Both the position numbers and the translations under genes were made by a program. Of a stretch of 60,393 nucleotides of DNA, positions 11,542 to 59,833 are shown piece after piece. The stretch is from the NCBI GenBank assembly GCA_902586125.1, contig CACIGI010000007.1, forward strand, positions 1 to 60,393. The letters are read 5' to 3'. The notes below the pieces were generated by a model. That model was given only the letters and a program-made list of their open reading frames with translations, ran no database searches and was not told where the DNA came from. This stretch comes from an uncultured Pelagibacteraceae bacterium (GTDB lineage Bacteria > Pseudomonadota > Alphaproteobacteria > Pelagibacterales > Pelagibacteraceae). Each line of letters opens with the position of its first letter. The first letter of the stretch is position 1.

Positions 11542-12212
11542 ACCCATTAAATCATGTAGCCATTATCATGGATGGTAATGGAAGATGGGGTTTAAAATAT
11601 AGAAATTCTAGAAACATAGGACATAAACAAGGCTTAAAAACAGTTGAAAAAATAATTAAATCCTCACTAAAAAACAAAATTAAGTTTCTGACATTATATG
11701 CTTTTTCTACTGAAAATTGGAAAAGACCAAAAAAAGAAATTAACTATCTTTTTAAATTATTAGAAAATTTTTTAACAAAGAGACTTGATGACATTCATAA
11801 ACAAAATATAAGAATAAAAATTTTAGGTAATAAAAAGTTTTCAAAAAAATTGAATTTTCTCTTAAATTTTGCAGAAAAAAAAACAAAAAAAAACTCAAAA
11901 TTACAAATTAACTTAGCTTTAAATTATGGTTCAAAATTAGAGCTTATGAATGCTTTTAAAAAGATTAAAAGAAATAAAATAAAAATTAATGAAAAAAACT
12001 TAGAAAAAAACCTTCAAACTAATGGTATTCCAGACCCGGATATTTTAATTAGGACTGGTAACACGAAAAGGTTGAGTAATTTTTTATTATGGCAACTAGC
12101 TTATTCAGAAATTTTCTTTGAAAAGAAATTATGGCCAGCATTTACTGAAAAAGATTATATTAAAATTATTACAGAGTATAAAAATATTAAAAGAAATTTT
12201 GGAAGAGTATGA
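11538..12212 (+). CDS. uppS: Undecaprenyl diphosphate synthase (cis-prenyltransferase)
   Basis: This enzyme makes the C55 lipid carrier for peptidoglycan and other polysaccharides from farnesyl and isopentenyl diphosphate. The catalytic motif AIIMDGNGRWG (D12) is at the N-terminus, followed by LYAFSTENWKRP, LNYGSKLEL and the C-terminal DILIRTGNTKRLSNFLLWQ substrate motif. The 224-residue length is slightly short but complete. It overlaps frr and cdsA by 4 bases each and works in the same precursor pathway as dxr downstream. Confidence 0.95.
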   Translation: MNPLNHVAIIMDGNGRWGLKYRNSRNIGHKQGLKTVEKIIKSSLKNKIKFLTLYAFSTENWKRPKKEINYLFKLLENFLTKRLDDIHKQNIRIKILGNKKFSKKLNFLLNFAEKKTKKNSKLQINLALNYGSKLELMNAFKKIKRNKIKINEKNLEKNLQTNGIPDPDILIRTGNTKRLSNFLLWQLAYSEIFFEKKLWPAFTEKDYIKIITEYKNIKRNFGRV

Positions 12213-12880
12213 TCAAAAAAGAATTACAACAAAGAATCTTGAGCTCAATAATCTTGATACCAGTGTCATTTTTTTTTATTATCCAAGGATCTTTCTCTTT
12301 TATATTTTTTTTGAGTTTAATTTTTTTAGTAACAAGTTTGGAATGGTTTAAAATGACTAAAAGAAAAGATTTACTTAGAATTTTTGGATTATTTTTTTTG
12401 TTTTTTTCTTTTTTTTCAACAATTTATCTAAGAAATTATATTGGTTTTAATTTTTTCCTATTTTTGATCATAGTCTGTATATTTACTGATATAGGTGGTT
12501 ATATCTTCGGTAAGACATTTAAAGGACCTAGATTAACTAAAGTGAGTCCTAAAAAAACATATTCAGGGGTTATTGGAAGTTTTTTGTTTTCGTTAATTTT
12601 TGGTCTAATTTATATTAAATATTTAGGGCAAACAAACAAAATTCCAGAAATAGATCTTGTATTTATAATTCTACTAATTTTATTTATTTCATTAGTGAGC
12701 CAAATAGGAGATTTAATCATTTCGTATTTCAAAAGAAAAGCTAAATTAAAAAATGCAGGAAAAATTATACCAGGACATGGTGGTTTTTTAGATAGGATTG
12801 ATGGGATAATTTTTGTAATGCCTATAACATATCTTTTTGTATTACCTATCTTAATTAACAAATTAGATTTTATTAAATAA
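12209..12880 (+). CDS. cdsA: Phosphatidate cytidylyltransferase (CDP-DAG synthase)
   Basis: This membrane enzyme converts phosphatidate and CTP to CDP-diacylglycerol, the precursor of all phospholipids. About six to seven hydrophobic segments are visible. The C-terminal signature SQIGDLIISYFKRKAKLKN followed by IPGHGGFLDRIDG contains the conserved metal-binding Asp residues. At 223 residues it is shorter than the E. coli enzyme (about 285), mostly through a reduced N-terminal membrane part. The stop and the dxr start share one base. Confidence 0.93.
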   Translation: MIKKELQQRILSSIILIPVSFFFIIQGSFSFIFFLSLIFLVTSLEWFKMTKRKDLLRIFGLFFLFFSFFSTIYLRNYIGFNFFLFLIIVCIFTDIGGYIFGKTFKGPRLTKVSPKKTYSGVIGSFLFSLIFGLIYIKYLGQTNKIPEIDLVFIILLILFISLVSQIGDLIISYFKRKAKLKNAGKIIPGHGGFLDRIDGIIFVMPITYLFVLPILINKLDFIK

Positions 12881-53975: not shown

Positions 53976-54860
53976 TTATTTTACAAGAAAATTCACTTTT
54001 TTATTTGATAGATTTAAATGAATTTTTTTATATGAACCAAAATTATCTCCATCAATTTGAACAGGTATCAAATCATTTCCATCAATTGTAATGTTTTGTG
54101 AATAAGTAGTAATAACATTTTTATTTTTACTTAAATCACCATTAAGAATTATTAAAAATATAGAATATAATAAATTGATCCTAGTTAAATCCTTAAATAT
54201 ATATGTGACTATTTTATTTTCAAAAATATTTGTTTTATTTATTTTATGATGTCCAGCGTAATATTTGGTATTTGAAGATAATATCCAGTCTGCTTGACAA
54301 AATTGTCCATCAAAAGTAACATTTAATTTTTTATTATTCATAAACAAGAAATATTGAAAACCTTTGATACCAAATATCACTTTTCCAAGAATTTTTTTAA
54401 TTTTTGAATTAATTGAATGAACAATTTTTGCATCCCATCCTATACCAGCCATTAAAAAGAAATAATTCTCGTTAATTTTTACAAGATTAGAGGATTTATA
54501 ATTATTAGAAATCAATACATTGACTATATCATCAATCTTTTTATTCATTGATAATTCAGCTTGCAATAAATTTGCTGTCCCAGCAGGTATATAGCCTATA
54601 GCAAAATCGTCTTTAAAATTAAAATCATTCTTTATTAACTCATTAATTGCAAAAGAAACAGACCCATCTCCACCAGCAACTATTAATCGATCGTAATTTT
54701 TTTGATTAAAGTTTTTAAAAATTTTCTTAGCTTGATTTATTGTTTTGGTCTCAAAGTATTCTACTGAATTATTTTCTTTTAACTTAGACAAAACCCTATT
54801 TATGAATTTTGATTTTCTTCCAGAGGAAGAGTTTTGATTGTAAATTAAACAATACAACAT
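53976..54860 (-). CDS. Diacylglycerol kinase-like lipid kinase (YegS/DagK family)
   Basis: This is a 294-residue protein of the DAGK_cat family, which phosphorylates diacylglycerol or related lipids. It starts with LIYNQNSSSGRKSKF (the NPxSG-type nucleotide motif), followed by RLIVAGGDGSVSFAINEL (the GGDGT-type motif, here GGDGS), and IGYIPAGTANLLQAEL (the GT-N motif). The C-terminal domain is the usual beta sandwich. No membrane helices are seen. It is divergent from plcP across a 98-base spacer carrying Pho-box-like sites in both directions. Its likely substrate is the diacylglycerol made by PlcP; that is inferred. Confidence 0.85.
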   Translation of the reverse strand: MLYCLIYNQNSSSGRKSKFINRVLSKLKENNSVEYFETKTINQAKKIFKNFNQKNYDRLIVAGGDGSVSFAINELIKNDFNFKDDFAIGYIPAGTANLLQAELSMNKKIDDIVNVLISNNYKSSNLVKINENYFFLMAGIGWDAKIVHSINSKIKKILGKVIFGIKGFQYFLFMNNKKLNVTFDGQFCQADWILSSNTKYYAGHHKINKTNIFENKIVTYIFKDLTRINLLYSIFLIILNGDLSKNKNVITTYSQNITIDGNDLIPVQIDGDNFGSYKKIHLNLSNKKVNFLVK

Positions 54861-54878
54861 AATTAATCCTTAAAAAAT

Positions 54879-54896
54879 TTTTAACAAATTTGTAAC
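54879..54896 (+). promoter_or_regulatory. Pho-box-like site directed to plcP-agt
   Basis: TTTTAAC, 4 bases, TTGTAAC: two seven-base half-sites with an 11-base repeat. The same pattern (TTTTAAC, 4 bases, GTGTAAC) lies before pstS. It resembles the PhoB box of two CTGTCAT-type repeats spaced by 11. It ends 62 bases before the plcP ATG. Confidence 0.6.
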
Positions 54897-54927
54897 ATTT
54901 AAATGAAATAAGAAATACATGATTCGT

Positions 54928-54945
54928 GTTACAGTTGTATTAAAA
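54928..54945 (-). promoter_or_regulatory. Pho-box-like site directed to the diacylglycerol kinase gene
   Basis: Read on the minus strand: TTTTAAT, 4 bases (ACAA), CTGTAAC, with an 11-base repeat. It has the same layout as the plcP and pstS sites but the opposite orientation, and ends 67 bases before the kinase ATG at 54860. The two sites in this spacer face each other. Confidence 0.5.
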
Positions 54946-54958
54946 TATAGGCCTTTAA

Positions 54959-55771
54959 ATGCCTAACATACTTAAATACAAAAGCATTTTTATTTCTGAT
55001 GTGCATTTGGGTACCAAGGGTTGTCAGGCGAAAAAACTTTTAGAGTTTTTTAAAAACTCAAGATCTGAAAATCTTTATCTTGTAGGAGACATTATAGATG
55101 TCTGGGAAATGCAAAAAAGTTTTTTTTGGCCTCAAGAACATAATGATGTAATCCAAAAAATTTTAAGAAAAGCAAGACATGGCACTAAAGTTTTCTATAT
55201 TATGGGCAACCATGATGAAATGTTAAGAAAATTTATTCCAATGAATTTTGGTGACATCCATATGGTTAATAGAGTTATTCATGAGACAAATGCTGGAAAA
55301 AAATATGTTGTTGTTCATGGTGATGCTTGGGATGGTGTTATGAAACATGCTAAATGGCTATCTAAACTTGGATCAATAGCTTACAATTTATTGTTACAAA
55401 TAAATGTAATAATTAATTTCTTTAGAAGGTTGAGAGGAAAAGAATATTGGTCTCTTGCAAAATATTTAAAATATAAGGTTAAGAACGCCGTCAAATATAT
55501 TGGTGAATATGAAAAAACACTCTCAGATTATGCAAAAAGAAAAAAATTTGATGGAATAATTTGTGGCCATATCCATCATGCTGAGGATAGAGATTTTAAT
55601 GGGGTCAATTATTTAAATTGTGGAGACTGGGTAGAATCTTGCACTGCATTAGCCGAAAATTACGATGGTAGCTTTGAAATATTATATTGGGATAAAATAA
55701 GAGAACAATATTTAGACACTCAAGAAATAATTAAACCTATTAAAAATGAAGACTTAAAAAAAGCTTCGTAA
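54959..55771 (+). CDS. plcP: PlcP-type metallophosphoesterase (phospholipase C; LpxH-like fold)
   Basis: This is a 270-residue calcineurin-like phosphoesterase. Metal ligands are in FISDVHLG (residues 11-18), VGDIIDVWE, MGNHDEM, VVHGDAWDG and CGHIHHAED. It would often be labelled UDP-2,3-diacylglucosamine diphosphatase, but LpxI is already encoded at 19053-19838. The gene sits next to a glycosyltransferase and the Pho/Pst genes, as does the phospholipase C PlcP, which removes head groups from phospholipids during phosphate starvation. A Pho-box-like site precedes it. The PlcP assignment rests on context as well as sequence. Confidence 0.85.
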   Translation: MPNILKYKSIFISDVHLGTKGCQAKKLLEFFKNSRSENLYLVGDIIDVWEMQKSFFWPQEHNDVIQKILRKARHGTKVFYIMGNHDEMLRKFIPMNFGDIHMVNRVIHETNAGKKYVVVHGDAWDGVMKHAKWLSKLGSIAYNLLLQINVIINFFRRLRGKEYWSLAKYLKYKVKNAVKYIGEYEKTLSDYAKRKKFDGIICGHIHHAEDRDFNGVNYLNCGDWVESCTALAENYDGSFEILYWDKIREQYLDTQEIIKPIKNEDLKKAS

Positions 55772-55774
55772 TTA

Positions 55775-56782
55775 ATGAAAATTTTAATCGCAACAGATGC
55801 ATATTTTCCACAAGTAAATGGTGTTGTAAGAACCTTGCATGAAACAGGTAAAATTTTAAAAGAACAAGGTCATAGATTAGAATATATCACACCAGAATTA
55901 TTTTTAACTTTTCCGATGCCAAAATATAATGAAATTAGAATATCTATTAATGTTTGGCCAAGAGTTGGTAGCTTAATAAAGAAAATAAAACCTGATGCAA
56001 TTCATATAGCTACTGAAGGTCCTATAGGGACTATGGCAAGAAGATATTGTTTGAAGAATAAACTAAAGTTTACCACAAGTTTTCATACAAGATTTGATAA
56101 ATATCTTAAGCTTTACTTTCCTATTATACCTGCAAAATGGGCTGAAAAATTCTTAGCAAACTTTCATAACAAGGCTGAGAGAATCTTAGTAACAACAGAA
56201 TCTATGAGAAAAGAATTAATCGATATAGGTATAGATAATAATAAAATGATTACTTGGACAAGAGGAGGCAATCATGGAGCTTTTAAGAGTCCGAAAAAAA
56301 TTGATTTACCACATAAAAGACCGATTTGGATTTATGTTGGAAGAGTTGCAGTTGAAAAAAACATAAGAGCTTTTTTAGAATGTGATTTAGAGGGTACAAA
56401 AATGATAATAGGAAAGGGACCTGATTTAAAAAAATTAAAAAAAGAATTTCCTAAAGATATTTTTTTAGGAGAAAAAACAAACGGTGAATTAGCGTCTCAT
56501 TTTGCATCTTCCGATGTTTTTGTATTTCCAAGTAAAACAGATACATTTGGAATTGTAGTTTGTGAGTCTTTAAATTGCGGAACACCTGTAGCTGCTTATC
56601 CTGTTCCAGGTCCTAAAGATATATTTGAGGGTTCCAAAATAAATTGTTTAGATAATGATCTTAAAGTTTCAGCTCATAAAGCTTTGAAAGTTAATAGAAA
56701 TGATTGTCTTGAATTTGCAAAAAAATTCACTTGGGAAGAAACAGCAAAAATATTTTTTAACAATATTTCACCAAATCATTAG
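55775..56782 (+). CDS. agt: GT4-family glycosyltransferase, probable diacylglycerol glycosyltransferase (Agt)
   Basis: This 335-residue GT-B enzyme starts ILIATDAYFPQVNGVVRTL. It has a donor-binding C-terminal half with IYVGRVAVEKN near residue 188 and the TDTFGIVVCESLNCGTPVAAY motif near residue 250. It lies 3 bases after plcP. In marine heterotrophs the same pair makes glycosyl-diacylglycerols that replace phospholipids when phosphate is short, so PlcP would supply the acceptor. The sugar donor (UDP-glucose, UDP-glucuronate or another) cannot be read from the sequence. manC nearby makes GDP-mannose, but no link is proven. Confidence 0.85.
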   Translation: MKILIATDAYFPQVNGVVRTLHETGKILKEQGHRLEYITPELFLTFPMPKYNEIRISINVWPRVGSLIKKIKPDAIHIATEGPIGTMARRYCLKNKLKFTTSFHTRFDKYLKLYFPIIPAKWAEKFLANFHNKAERILVTTESMRKELIDIGIDNNKMITWTRGGNHGAFKSPKKIDLPHKRPIWIYVGRVAVEKNIRAFLECDLEGTKMIIGKGPDLKKLKKEFPKDIFLGEKTNGELASHFASSDVFVFPSKTDTFGIVVCESLNCGTPVAAYPVPGPKDIFEGSKINCLDNDLKVSAHKALKVNRNDCLEFAKKFTWEETAKIFFNNISPNH

Positions 56783-56847: not shown

Positions 56848-57993
56848 ATGGAATATTTCATCATTCTACTTATAGTTGTTATAATTTATCTCCTCTATTT
56901 ACTTAATCAAAAAAAAAACAAATCAATAAATACTGCTACAATAATTAATAAAAGAGAGGAAAAAACCAAAAGAGTAATTATTGATGAGCTTGAGGATCAA
57001 TTTTTTGCATTAAATAAATTTAACATAATTAAATATGCCAATCCAAGTGCATTAAAAAGATTTGGAAGTAATTTAATTGATAAAAACATATCTTCTATAA
57101 TTCGAAAACCAGAATTAATAGAAAATATTGAAAAAGCTATTGTTGAAAATAAAACAAAAAATATTGACATTGAAATAGACCTCCCATCATATCAATTCTA
57201 TAAAATTTATATTATTCCTGGCCCAACTCATTTGTTTACTGAACCAGACTCTGTTGTGTTATTTTTAAAAGATTTTACTGAAATTACAAAAGCACAAAAA
57301 TTTAAAACTGATTTTGTAGCAAATGTAAGCCATGAATTAAGAACACCTTTAATGGCAATCAAAGGATCACTAGAAACAATTGAGGGCCCAGCGTCTGATG
57401 ATGAAAAGGCTAAAAAAAAATTTATGAAAATAATGACTGATCAATCAAATAGAATGGAAAATTTAATTAATGATCTTTTAATACTCACAAGAATTGAATT
57501 AGAAGAACACATAAGGCCAAACTCTTTAGTTGATATAAATGATCTTTTCAAAACAATCATCAGTAATTTTGAGATTGTTTTAAAAAGAAAGAAATTAAAT
57601 ATTAATTTATCTCTCGCCAATCCAACAGTTGTTATTGGAGATGAAAAAAAATTACAAACTGTTTTTTCTAATCTTTTAGATAATGCAATTAAGTATTCAA
57701 AGGAAAATAAGTCTATTTTTATATCAAGCAAAATTAGCGATGGTAAATTGTTAGAAAAAAATTTTATGATCAGTATTAAAGACGAAGGTGTTGGCATTCC
57801 TCAAAGATATATTTCTAGAATTACAGAAAGATTTTTTAGGGTAGATCTTGAACAAAGTAACAAGGTTGGTGGAACCGGTTTAGGATTAGCTATTGTTAAA
57901 CATATAGTTACTCAACATCGTGGACACTATGAGATTCTAAGTGAGGAAAACCAAGGAACTGAAATTCAAATTTATTTACCAGCGAAAACTTAA
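56848..57993 (+). CDS. phoR: Phosphate-regulon sensor histidine kinase PhoR
   Basis: This is a 381-residue membrane kinase with one N-terminal transmembrane helix (about residues 2-20), a PAS-like region (about 45-150), HisKA with VANVSHELRTPLMAIKGSLE near residue 158, and HATPase with NLLDNAIKYS, DEGVGIP and GGTGLGLAIVKHI. PhoR is a better fit than other kinases because the gene lies between plcP-agt and pst, and the single anchor plus PAS layout matches PhoR. Its regulator PhoB is not in the window and is probably beyond the right edge after pst. Confidence 0.87.
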   Translation: MEYFIILLIVVIIYLLYLLNQKKNKSINTATIINKREEKTKRVIIDELEDQFFALNKFNIIKYANPSALKRFGSNLIDKNISSIIRKPELIENIEKAIVENKTKNIDIEIDLPSYQFYKIYIIPGPTHLFTEPDSVVLFLKDFTEITKAQKFKTDFVANVSHELRTPLMAIKGSLETIEGPASDDEKAKKKFMKIMTDQSNRMENLINDLLILTRIELEEHIRPNSLVDINDLFKTIISNFEIVLKRKKLNINLSLANPTVVIGDEKKLQTVFSNLLDNAIKYSKENKSIFISSKISDGKLLEKNFMISIKDEGVGIPQRYISRITERFFRVDLEQSNKVGGTGLGLAIVKHIVTQHRGHYEILSEENQGTEIQIYLPAKT

Positions 57994-58083: not shown

Positions 58084-58692
58084 ATGGTTAAAATATTTAA
58101 AAATATTTTGATTTTTGCTTTTTTATTAAGCTCTATAACAACAAGTGTTTTTTCTAAAGATATCACAACATTATTAAGAAATCAGCAACTTACAGTTTTT
58201 GATATTGGAATTTTTAGATTAGAGGCAGATTTGAAAACTTCATATCCTTCTATTAAAGATCATTTAGAAGTTACTGAAGCTGAATTTTATACAGACGTAG
58301 TTAACTCGTATTCTAAAAATTCAATTGATTTAATTGTTTCTGTTCCTATGAATAGAAATCTCAAGAAGGAAAATTATTTTTCAGATTCTTTTAGATGTAG
58401 GAATATTTTTAATTCTGTAAGAGATTTTTTATTGAGGAATGAAAATTTGAGTAATTATAGATATACTATGGCTACAAGCTATTTAACCTCTATATTTTCA
58501 ACCCCAAGTTCATGGCCAAGCTGGAGATATGATGAAGAAATTAGAGAGGAATTAGTAAACTTAGTAAAACTAGAAATAACTTTACGTCCAACCAAAGAAC
58601 TAGCTCTTAATGAACAGGTAAACCCTGTTTCATGTATTGGTGGCTTAGAAACTGATATTGATCAAATAATTATATCAAAAAAATACAACTAA
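58084..58692 (+). CDS. Exported protein of unknown function in the Pho region
   Basis: This 202-residue protein was not recognised. It has a clear signal peptide (about residues 1-24, a hydrophobic core ending SVFSKD). The mature part begins with DITTLLRNQQLTVFDIGIFRLE, followed by charged and aromatic stretches (SSWPSWRYDEE near residue 142). Two cysteines, C105 and C184, could form a disulfide in the periplasm. No transmembrane helix follows the signal. It sits alone between phoR and pstS, with a weak Pho-box-like site before it, so a role in phosphate acquisition is possible but inferred from position only. Confidence 0.75.
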   Translation: MVKIFKNILIFAFLLSSITTSVFSKDITTLLRNQQLTVFDIGIFRLEADLKTSYPSIKDHLEVTEAEFYTDVVNSYSKNSIDLIVSVPMNRNLKKENYFSDSFRCRNIFNSVRDFLLRNENLSNYRYTMATSYLTSIFSTPSSWPSWRYDEEIREELVNLVKLEITLRPTKELALNEQVNPVSCIGGLETDIDQIIISKKYN

Positions 58693-58702
58693 AAAGTTAC
58701 CT

Positions 58703-58731
58703 TTTTAACAAAAGTGTAACAATTCTGTAAT
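58703..58731 (+). promoter_or_regulatory. Pho box with three half-sites upstream of pstS
   Basis: Three seven-base units at exact 11-base spacing: TTTTAAC (58703-58709), GTGTAAC (58714-58720) and CTGTAAT (58725-58731). The last two fit the CTGTCAT-N4-CTGTCAT PhoB box well. The site ends 70 bases before the pstS ATG. Confidence 0.75.
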
Positions 58732-58801
58732 ATTAAAGATTCAATAAATTTATACGAGTCAATCATCTTTTAATTAATAAATAACGAAAGGATTAAAGAT
58801 A

Positions 58802-59833
58802 ATGAAAAAACTAACTATAGTAATTGCTTCTTTAGTTGCACTTTCAATTGCAACTGTTGCTCAAGCAAGAGATCAAATTAAGATAGTTGGTTCTTCTACA
58901 GTATTCCCTTATGCAACAGTTGTTGCTGAAAGATTTGGTGGTTCAGGATTTAAAACTCCTGTAATCGAGTCTACTGGTACTGGTGGTGGAGCTAAACTAT
59001 TCTGTGCTGGTGTAGGTGAACAACATCCAGATATTACAAATGCATCAAGAGCTATGAAAGATAAAGAAAAAGCTCTATGTAAGAAAAATGGTGTTAATGA
59101 TATCGTTGAGATCGTAATTGGTAACGATGGGATTACATTAGCTTACAGCAAAGATGCAAAACCAGTAAACTTTACTAAAGAACAATTATATTTAGCACTT
59201 GCTGCTCATACAGTTGTTGATGGTAAATTAGTTCCAAATATTTATAAAACTTGGGACCAAATTGACCCTAGCTTACCAAAACAAAAAATTTCAGTGATGA
59301 TCCCACCAGGAACATCAGGAACTAGAGATGCTTGGAATTCTTTAGTAATGAAAAAAGGTATGACTAAAGAAGCTAAAGCTCTTTATAAAGCTGGTTTTGA
59401 AGCTGGAAATAAAAAATACAAAAAACCTCAAAAACTTTACAGAGAAGATGGTGCTGCTATTGAAGTTGGAGAAAACGATAGTTTAATCATCCAAAAGTTA
59501 ACTCAAGATAAAGAAATGTTTGGTTTCTTTGGTTTCAGTTATTTCTTAGCTGCAAAAGATAAATTGCAAGCAGCAAGTATTGATGGTGGACAACCGTCAT
59601 TAAAGTCTATTCAAGACTACAGTTATGCTGTTGCTAGACCTTTATTCTTCTACGTGAAAAAAGCACACGTTGGAGTAATTCCAGGCTTACATGAGTTTGT
59701 GAAAGAATTCACAACTAAGAAAGCTATTGGAAAAGGGGGTTACTTAGCAGACATTGGTTTAGTGCCATTAGACTCTAAGTTGTATAAAACAACTAGAACT
59801 AATGCTACGAAGCTAGTTGCTATGGGTAATTAA
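58802..59833 (+). CDS. pstS: Phosphate ABC transporter substrate-binding protein PstS
   Basis: This is the periplasmic phosphate-binding protein of the high-affinity Pst importer. It has a signal peptide (residues 1 to about 22, ending AQARD), IKIVGSSTVFPYATVVAERF at the mature N-terminus, VIESTGTGGGAKLFCAG, and the phosphate-loop PPGTSGTRDAWNSLVM. The length of 343 residues is normal. The ribosome-binding site AAAGGA and richer codon choice suggest high expression. It is preceded by a three-unit Pho box and followed by a strong terminator before pstC. Confidence 0.95.
   Translation: MKKLTIVIASLVALSIATVAQARDQIKIVGSSTVFPYATVVAERFGGSGFKTPVIESTGTGGGAKLFCAGVGEQHPDITNASRAMKDKEKALCKKNGVNDIVEIVIGNDGITLAYSKDAKPVNFTKEQLYLALAAHTVVDGKLVPNIYKTWDQIDPSLPKQKISVMIPPGTSGTRDAWNSLVMKKGMTKEAKALYKAGFEAGNKKYKKPQKLYREDGAAIEVGENDSLIIQKLTQDKEMFGFFGFSYFLAAKDKLQAASIDGGQPSLKSIQDYSYAVARPLFFYVKKAHVGVIPGLHEFVKEFTTKKAIGKGGYLADIGLVPLDSKLYKTTRTNATKLVAMGN

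Follow-up and report, generated by a model that had tools for sequence, protein, structure and literature searches.

Facing Pho boxes between a lipid kinase gene and plcP-agt suggest joint phosphate-starvation control in a Pelagibacter lineage

The dagK/plcP spacer and its two Pho boxes

The DNA analysed here, called the window, is a stretch of 60,393 nucleotides (contig CACIGI010000007.1, positions 1 to 60,393) from an uncultured Pelagibacteraceae bacterium (assembly GCA_902586125.1). It carries dagK, a gene for a YegS/DgkB-type lipid kinase, which diverges from plcP and agt, the genes for a phospholipase C and a diacylglycerol glycosyltransferase. The 98-base spacer between dagK and plcP holds two Pho-box-like sites on opposite strands that face each other, one directed towards plcP-agt and the other towards dagK. 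A sequence-only reading had described these sites, and their positions, strands and distances to the two start codons are exactly as it gave them (Table 1). In this lineage, both genes are probably under the control of PhoB, and the kinase probably acts on the diacylglycerol that PlcP makes.

Both spacer sites match the pattern TTTTAAY-N4-YTGTAAC exactly; that is, they are direct 7-base repeats with an 11-base pitch. They share the layout of the site in front of pstS, as had been claimed, and the pstS promoter adds a third half-site. Since the exact pattern was derived from these very sites, a 14-position matrix that ignores the four spacer bases was trained on pstS promoters alone. Of 16 promoters chosen, 15 supplied 30 half-site pairs. 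The remaining one (L131), which the half-site expression did not fit, was left out, and the dagK/plcP spacer also stayed outside the training set; the window's own pstS pair was part of it and scores highly by construction. By this matrix, the pstS pair alone in the window outranks the spacer sites (ranks three and four), whose scores of 16.5 and 15.7 compare with a best of 13.7 among the 120,366 other position-strands of the window outside both regions. The whole genome (977 kb, 82% complete) holds three exact copies of the motif, two of them in the dagK/plcP spacer and one inside an open reading frame that, as read without a family search, begins like atpA. As predicted PhoB sites, the spacer sites thus fit the likely Pho promoters of the same group.

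Two further features of these promoters were observed. In the plcP promoter as well as in that of pstS, a GATTCG/GAGTC-like element (54921-54926 and 58756-58760) starts 25 bases past the Pho box, close to the predicted start sites, and similar elements occur in other SAR11 plcP promoters. A second type of pstS (L131-L140, about 64-68% identity), seen in genomes that lack dagK-plcP-agt matches, mostly has another promoter: eight of the ten fetched carry TTGTAAY-N4-STTTAAC-N4-CTTTAAT, and seven of those eight, plus the variant in L140, are in the matrix.

Table 1. Coordinates of genes and promoter features in the window
Feature	Position	Strand	Remarks
dagK	53976..54860	-	YegS/DgkB-type lipid kinase (DAGK_cat), 294 amino acids; PF00781 83.5 bits (cut-off 23.6)
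Divergent dagK/plcP spacer	54861..54958	.	98 bases; genus range 85-108 bases (61 spacers measured)
Pho box towards plcP-agt, TTTTAAC-AAAT-TTGTAAC	54879..54896	+	Matrix score 15.7; 62 bases to plcP start codon
Core common to both predicted promoters	54897..54927	.	31 base pairs (bp); boxes at spacer positions 19 and 68 throughout the 47 two-box spacers
Predicted extended -10 of plcP, TG-A-AATAAG	54904..54912	+	Predicted start ~54919; TG kept in 27/27 distinct two-box cores
Weak predicted -10 of dagK, TGTATT	54914..54919	-	Predicted start ~54905-54907; 4-5/6 TATAAT matches
Pho box towards dagK, TTTTAAT-ACAA-CTGTAAC	54928..54945	-	Matrix score 16.5; 67 bases to dagK start codon
plcP, metallophosphoesterase phospholipase C	54959..55771	+	PF00149 49.6 bits (cut-off 21.5)
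agt, GT4 diacylglycerol glycosyltransferase	55775..56782	+	PF13439 and PF00534 above cut-off; in the same 62 genus genomes as plcP
phoR-like sensor kinase gene	56848..57993	+	TIGR02966 phoR_proteo E 4.8e-84, 282.2 bits; below equivalog cut-off 334.2
pstS Pho boxes, three half-sites (motif reference)	58703..58731	+	Same layout as spacer sites plus third half-site
pstS	58802..59833	+	PF12849 144.1 bits (cut-off 27)
cdsA (CdsA-type), step that would use phosphatidate	12209..12880	+	PF01148 155.8 bits (cut-off 24)

Conservation of the two boxes

The spacers of 61 of 64 same-genus loci, the window included, were compared; L066, L068 and L069, each with one of the genes missing, were dropped. The box towards plcP is present in all 61, with scores from 5.5 (in the L052 type) to 20.0, and in all five spacers of the sister genus g5, with a score of 20.0. 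The box towards dagK is found in 47 of the 61, with scores from 13.4 to 21.3, and in one (L159, 21.3) of five further same-genus spacers from a search of the order. Its first half reads TTTTAAT, TTTTAAC, ATTTAAT, ATTTAAC or TTGTAAC across the two-box group; the last of these, carried by the 74% group, lifts the score to 21.3, slightly above that of the window's best pstS pair (20.9).

The 14 genus spacers without the dagK box comprise eight with a dagK near 64% identity and six of a group near 60%, one of which (L070) has its dagK cut by a contig end. In two-box spacers, 18 bases separate the start codon of dagK from the plcP box; this gap is 6 bases for the 64% group, 0-1 for five of the six spacers of the 60% group (18 for L064) and 1-2 for g5. 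A quick tree of dagK places the two-box rows, L159 included, in one group of 37 with a support of 99, so that a single gain of the dagK box is the simplest reading; the method gave a long-branch warning for L147 and L064. Comparison of 26 distinct close spacers shows variation at 2 of 14 positions in each of the two boxes, at 10 of 31 in the core, at 11 of 13 flanking positions beside plcP and at 5 of 18 beside dagK. Measured as mean pairwise difference, change is faster than in the dagK box in two parts only, the core (0.100) and the plcP side (0.251). The sequence-only reading had named conservation of the minus-strand site in related genomes as its own test. This held for the 47 two-box spacers and failed in the remainder of the genus set and in g5. 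The dagK box is, by this comparison, younger than the dagK/plcP gene pair and limited to one clade.

Co-occurrence and linkage of dagK, plcP and agt

An even sample of 201 genomes of the genus, including that of the window, was searched for the three genes; many of the genomes are incomplete, and gene fragments were counted. dagK was found in 63 of them, and plcP and agt in 62 each. Every plcP genome also carries agt and the whole or some part of dagK (in G032, only 47 residues at a contig edge), and in the sole genome with dagK and no plcP (G069) dagK itself is cut by a contig edge. A further 138 genomes have neither dagK nor plcP matches. Of the 201 genomes, 29 are at least 90% complete, and each gene is present in 16 of these. 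dagK and plcP lie side by side in 61 of the 62 genomes; in the exception, G036, they are on different contig ends. Stops interrupt dagK in two overlapping matches in G070 (L067), through either decay or assembly error.

No further PF00781 member above the cut-off was detected in these 201 genomes, the one extra match (G153, E 0.0088) lying below it. This rules out a general housekeeping role for dagK in the genus. Replacement of dagK by a DgkA-type kinase where dagK is missing was also rejected, as the DgkA family appears in only 1 of 117 genomes of the order. One genome (G012, a single contig without a plcP match) has an unrelated DgkA-type gene (PF01219; L161:6222-6554) between a manC-like gene and a gene before pstS, which is the slot of dagK-plcP-agt elsewhere.

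In the search of 117 genomes of the order, dagK and plcP are accompanied by agt and a phoR-like gene in four of six fetched loci of g5; of the other two, L143 has no phoR match and L146 begins at plcP. In the sister genus g4, dagK can stand apart from plcP. It is divergent to pstS in one genome (G302). In the other (G291, L147:1012-3475), a gap of 19 bases separates it from a gene of the same strand for an EptA/EptB-type phosphoethanolamine transferase; the contig end by this locus bears a pstS-type box, and plcP is on another contig. Phosphoethanolamine transferases of the EptA type are another producer of diacylglycerol. In all five fetched loci of genus g3 and of f2, a second SAR11 family (L149, L151-L154), agt is beside plcP. 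In one of these (L149:3462-3503, genome G249, genus g3), plcP shares back-to-back Pho boxes not with dagK but with a divergent gene for an Rce1-like membrane protease. The islands of G016, G032 and G217 (L060, L070, L156) show declining identity to the window, from 99-100% in pstS to 95% in agt, 82% in plcP and about 60% in dagK (lower in the G032 fragment), which suggests recombination inside the island.

The linkage extends beyond SAR11. The survey covered 289 alphaproteobacterial genomes, counting that of the window. PlcP (E <= 1e-30) is present in 100 of them and a DAGK match (E <= 1e-6) in 85; 59 genomes have both and 163 neither. All 46 dagK/plcP pairs that lie within 1 kb, again counting the window's, are divergent, and in 13 genomes the two genes are present but not side by side. 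In the 29 class loci with the best PlcP scores other than the window (not a random sample), a divergent kinase open reading frame with the GGDG motif was located in 19, and an agt match stands beside plcP in all 19 of these and in 27 of the 29 overall. As the linkage is class-wide and the dagK box clade-limited, the divergent pair is old and seems to predate the putative Pho control of dagK in SAR11. The claim that the kinase belongs to the lipid-remodelling module is thus supported by co-occurrence, adjacency and, in this lineage, the predicted Pho box of its own.

Neighbouring phosphate genes

The phoR-like gene and pstS lie downstream of agt, and the window ends within pst genes. Between the two, an open reading frame of 202 amino acids (58084-58692) has no match in Pfam or NCBIfam and is retained in all three related islands that reach it (L156, L158, L159). 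In the relative G243, whose dagK is 100% identical after rounding, the island runs on into pst genes and, downstream of them, phoB (above the TIGR02154 cut-off), and it also holds a phoU-like gene, a histidine-phosphatase gene and a polyphosphate kinase gene, the pst and phoU names being a reading of the open reading frames without a family search. In a close relative (L273), phoB scores 329.6 against the TIGR02154 cut-off of 296.2.

The enzymes and the probable substrate

Diacylglycerol is the product of PlcP. Kinases of the DAGK_cat family have varied substrates, and DgkB recycles diacylglycerol from lipoteichoic acid synthesis. The window gene named plcP encodes a Metallophos domain, falls below both LpxH equivalog cut-offs (50.2 against 134 and 39.5 against 190.35) and is followed by agt, and is accordingly taken as a PlcP. 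A CdsA-type gene is indeed found where it had been placed, at 12209, above the PF01148 cut-off; against the NCBIfam phosphatidate cytidylyltransferase model it scores 87.2 bits, below the cut-off of 385.

The solved sequence nearest to the window DagK is DgkB (2qv7, E 1.6e-19). DagK resembles the DgkB/YegS-type bacterial lipid kinases in its DAGK_cat domain and intact GGDG motif, and differs from them in being linked to PlcP and a Pho box. In 22 aligned sequences from SAR11 and other alphaproteobacteria, the window's included, G63-G64-D65-G66 is invariant, as is the C-terminal D270-G271, where the third place is D or E. GGDG is the nucleotide motif of these kinases, and DG-acid their C-terminal motif. 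The structure model of DagK (mean predicted local distance difference test score 44.6) is too poor for fold comparison. The genomic company of the gene points to diacylglycerol as its substrate.

A predicted divergent promoter region

The spacing between box and -10 element in E. coli Pho promoters was used to predict where transcription would start. The two predicted start sites are about 12-14 bp apart, and each box would lie just downstream of the start of the opposite gene. Both polymerase footprints would then fall in the 31-bp core, where a single polymerase at a time should fit, given that both predicted -10 elements are in these 31 bp and the boxes are past the opposite starts. Consequently, with facing boxes only 31 bp apart, the two promoters should overlap and compete. 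This overlap and the class-wide occurrence of the gene pair are additions to the earlier interpretation.

The spacer would thus be a compact PhoB-dependent divergent promoter region in which one box serves plcP-agt and the other dagK. PlcP would cut phospholipids to diacylglycerol, which Agt would convert into glycolipid, while DagK would re-phosphorylate it to phosphatidate for CdsA and new phospholipid. Phosphate starvation would turn on both arms and yet keep the two promoters competing, and the competition would determine how much of the diacylglycerol made by PlcP goes to Agt and how much to DagK/CdsA. For the competition step taken alone, the balance lies slightly on the doubtful side.

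Several observations weigh against this reading. Conversion of diacylglycerol to phosphatidate draws its phosphate from ATP, an odd task for a gene of the starvation response. The -10 predicted for dagK is a poor one and, in the chosen register, lacks the key A at its second position. The dagK-ward box is absent from 14 of the 61 genus spacers (best score at most 2.3) and from all five of g5, and dagK is still present in these; thus, dagK does not need the box. Nor does the box stand out by its rate of change, as its mean pairwise difference in the close spacers (0.049) is not below that of the 18 bases on the dagK side (0.042). plcP can also do without dagK, since 21 genomes of f2 and the one genome of g3 have plcP with no dagK match, and 41 of the 100 plcP genomes of the class have none at E <= 1e-6. 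In 19 spacers from outside SAR11 no consistent Pho box was found, although this is a weak test, with a general Pho-box consensus and starts guessed from the GGDG motif. The kinase stays below the cut-off of TIGR00147, the YegS/Rv2252/BmrU lipid kinase model (101.9 against 118.65). Moreover, as one phosphate island holds the three genes, joint inheritance could partly explain their co-occurrence in the genus. Finally, looser forms of the motif are not enriched. With up to three mismatches, the window has 115 occurrences where 101 +/- 10 are expected, and 8 of 100 shuffles reach 115; with up to two, the genome has 88 and 106 against 103 and 104 for a backwards control. Hence only near-exact sites carry weight. 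A chance origin of the spacer sites is nevertheless ruled out by the pstS-trained matrix.

Simple co-activation is a close rival of the favoured co-induction with competition and differs from it in the competition step only. Here, two ordinary PhoB promoters would be near each other by chance, the output of the two genes would increase in parallel, and DagK would prevent a build-up of diacylglycerol. Both boxes are strong by the matrix, the linkage of the genes predates the two-box arrangement, and five tested bidirectional promoters do not compete at basal activity (PMC12825309), all of which agree with this view. However, strong activation in one direction can repress the other (PMC12825309), and the facing boxes with their 31-bp core in 47 of 47 two-box spacers bring the two predicted polymerase sites onto one stretch of DNA. 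Co-activation without competition is plausible, though less likely than not.

A bolder form of the competition reading is doubtful, if worth stating. In most one-box spacers, the single box is 0-6 bases from the dagK start codon, so that PhoB would shut dagK off there. One Pelagibacter lineage may then have gained the facing second box, by which the sign of the control on dagK would have flipped once, from repression to a PhoB-driven either/or switch between glycolipid and phosphatidate.

Alternatively, the minus-strand site might not activate dagK at all, and PhoB bound there would act as a roadblock or fine-tuner of plcP, with dagK constitutive. In favour of this, the site would begin about 9 bases past the predicted start of plcP and extend to about 26, the -10 predicted for dagK is weak, and dagK is retained without a box in the 14 genus spacers. 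By contrast, the site points to dagK at the usual distance, and its half-site changes preserve or improve the match, which makes a pure roadblock quite unlikely. It is just as improbable that the kinase uses another lipid, such as a lysolipid or undecaprenol, in a neighbourhood of general envelope phosphate metabolism: the varied substrates of the family and the EptA-like neighbour of dagK in G291 would allow it, but dagK without PlcP is seen in one genus genome only, there cut by a contig edge, PlcP releases diacylglycerol, and among solved sequences the diacylglycerol kinase DgkB matches best.

Relation to known systems

The plcP-agt module is known as one of the plcP neighbourhood types (type 2) described in PMC4796936, a source that also reports putative Pho boxes in plcP clusters, the function of agt, and complementation of a plcP mutant by the PlcP of HTCC7211. 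The window resembles it in the order of plcP and agt and in the Pho boxes, and differs in the divergent dagK with its own Pho box in the spacer. The word kinase does not occur in the main text of that paper, to which this count is confined, nor in the accessible text of PMC8231724 and PMC9239053, which describe PlcP-Agt pathways.

That the kinase is a new third component, as the sequence-only reading had proposed, is not wholly so, since such kinases beside Pho genes have been published (PMC10734472, PMC3686209, PMC5082522). The flexible phosphate islands of HIMB59 (PMC10734472) likewise combine a diacylglycerol kinase, a glycosyltransferase and an LpxH-named phosphoesterase with pst and phoR-phoB; this phosphoesterase may well be PlcP. 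Unlike the present analysis, the accessible text of that study does not mention promoter sites. Clusters of a diacylglycerol kinase and a metallophosphoesterase, both from HTCC7211 only, are among the over-represented SAR11 clusters beside phosphonate genes (PMC3686209). In Pseudomonas putida BIRD-1, similarly, DagK is with PlcP among the lipid-remodelling proteins enriched on phosphate depletion (PMC5082522). The proteins listed there as absent in the phoBR mutant include PlcP and OlsAB, with DagK unnamed, while the discussion calls them PHO-dependent, DagK included. Sinorhizobium SMc00170, considered as a kinase gene beside plcP, was rejected, as it is sinR in PMC5596199.

Bidirectional promoters of enterobacteria are defined by divergent starts 7-25 bp apart (PMC10268837). 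The starts predicted in the window fall within this definition; the window differs from those promoters (PMC10268837, PMC12825309) in having an activator box for each direction and in that its starts are predicted. Literature searches on a kinase in connection with plcP, lipid remodelling or HTCC7211, covering titles, abstracts and accessible text passages, returned nothing on facing boxes or on a class-wide divergent pair, and the accessible text of PMC5193443, PMC3972451, PMC13086504, PMC3596328, PMC7401256 and PMC12282109 added nothing on this kinase. The module is, as far as sequence comparison goes, a variation on the known plcP-agt module, in which the linkage is strong and old and the second Pho box young and clade-limited.

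Lipid remodelling is a way in which abundant ocean bacteria save phosphorus, and the published schemes, in their accessible text, have two steps, PlcP and then a head-group enzyme. The present interpretation offers a reading for the diacylglycerol kinase that the phosphate-island study (PMC10734472) listed without a direct phosphorus-related function. If it is true, the lineage-specific kinase with its Pho box would make the fate of the released diacylglycerol a controlled branch point, and, as divergent dagK/plcP/agt loci occur across the class, this branch point would be testable in cultured, genetically tractable alphaproteobacteria.
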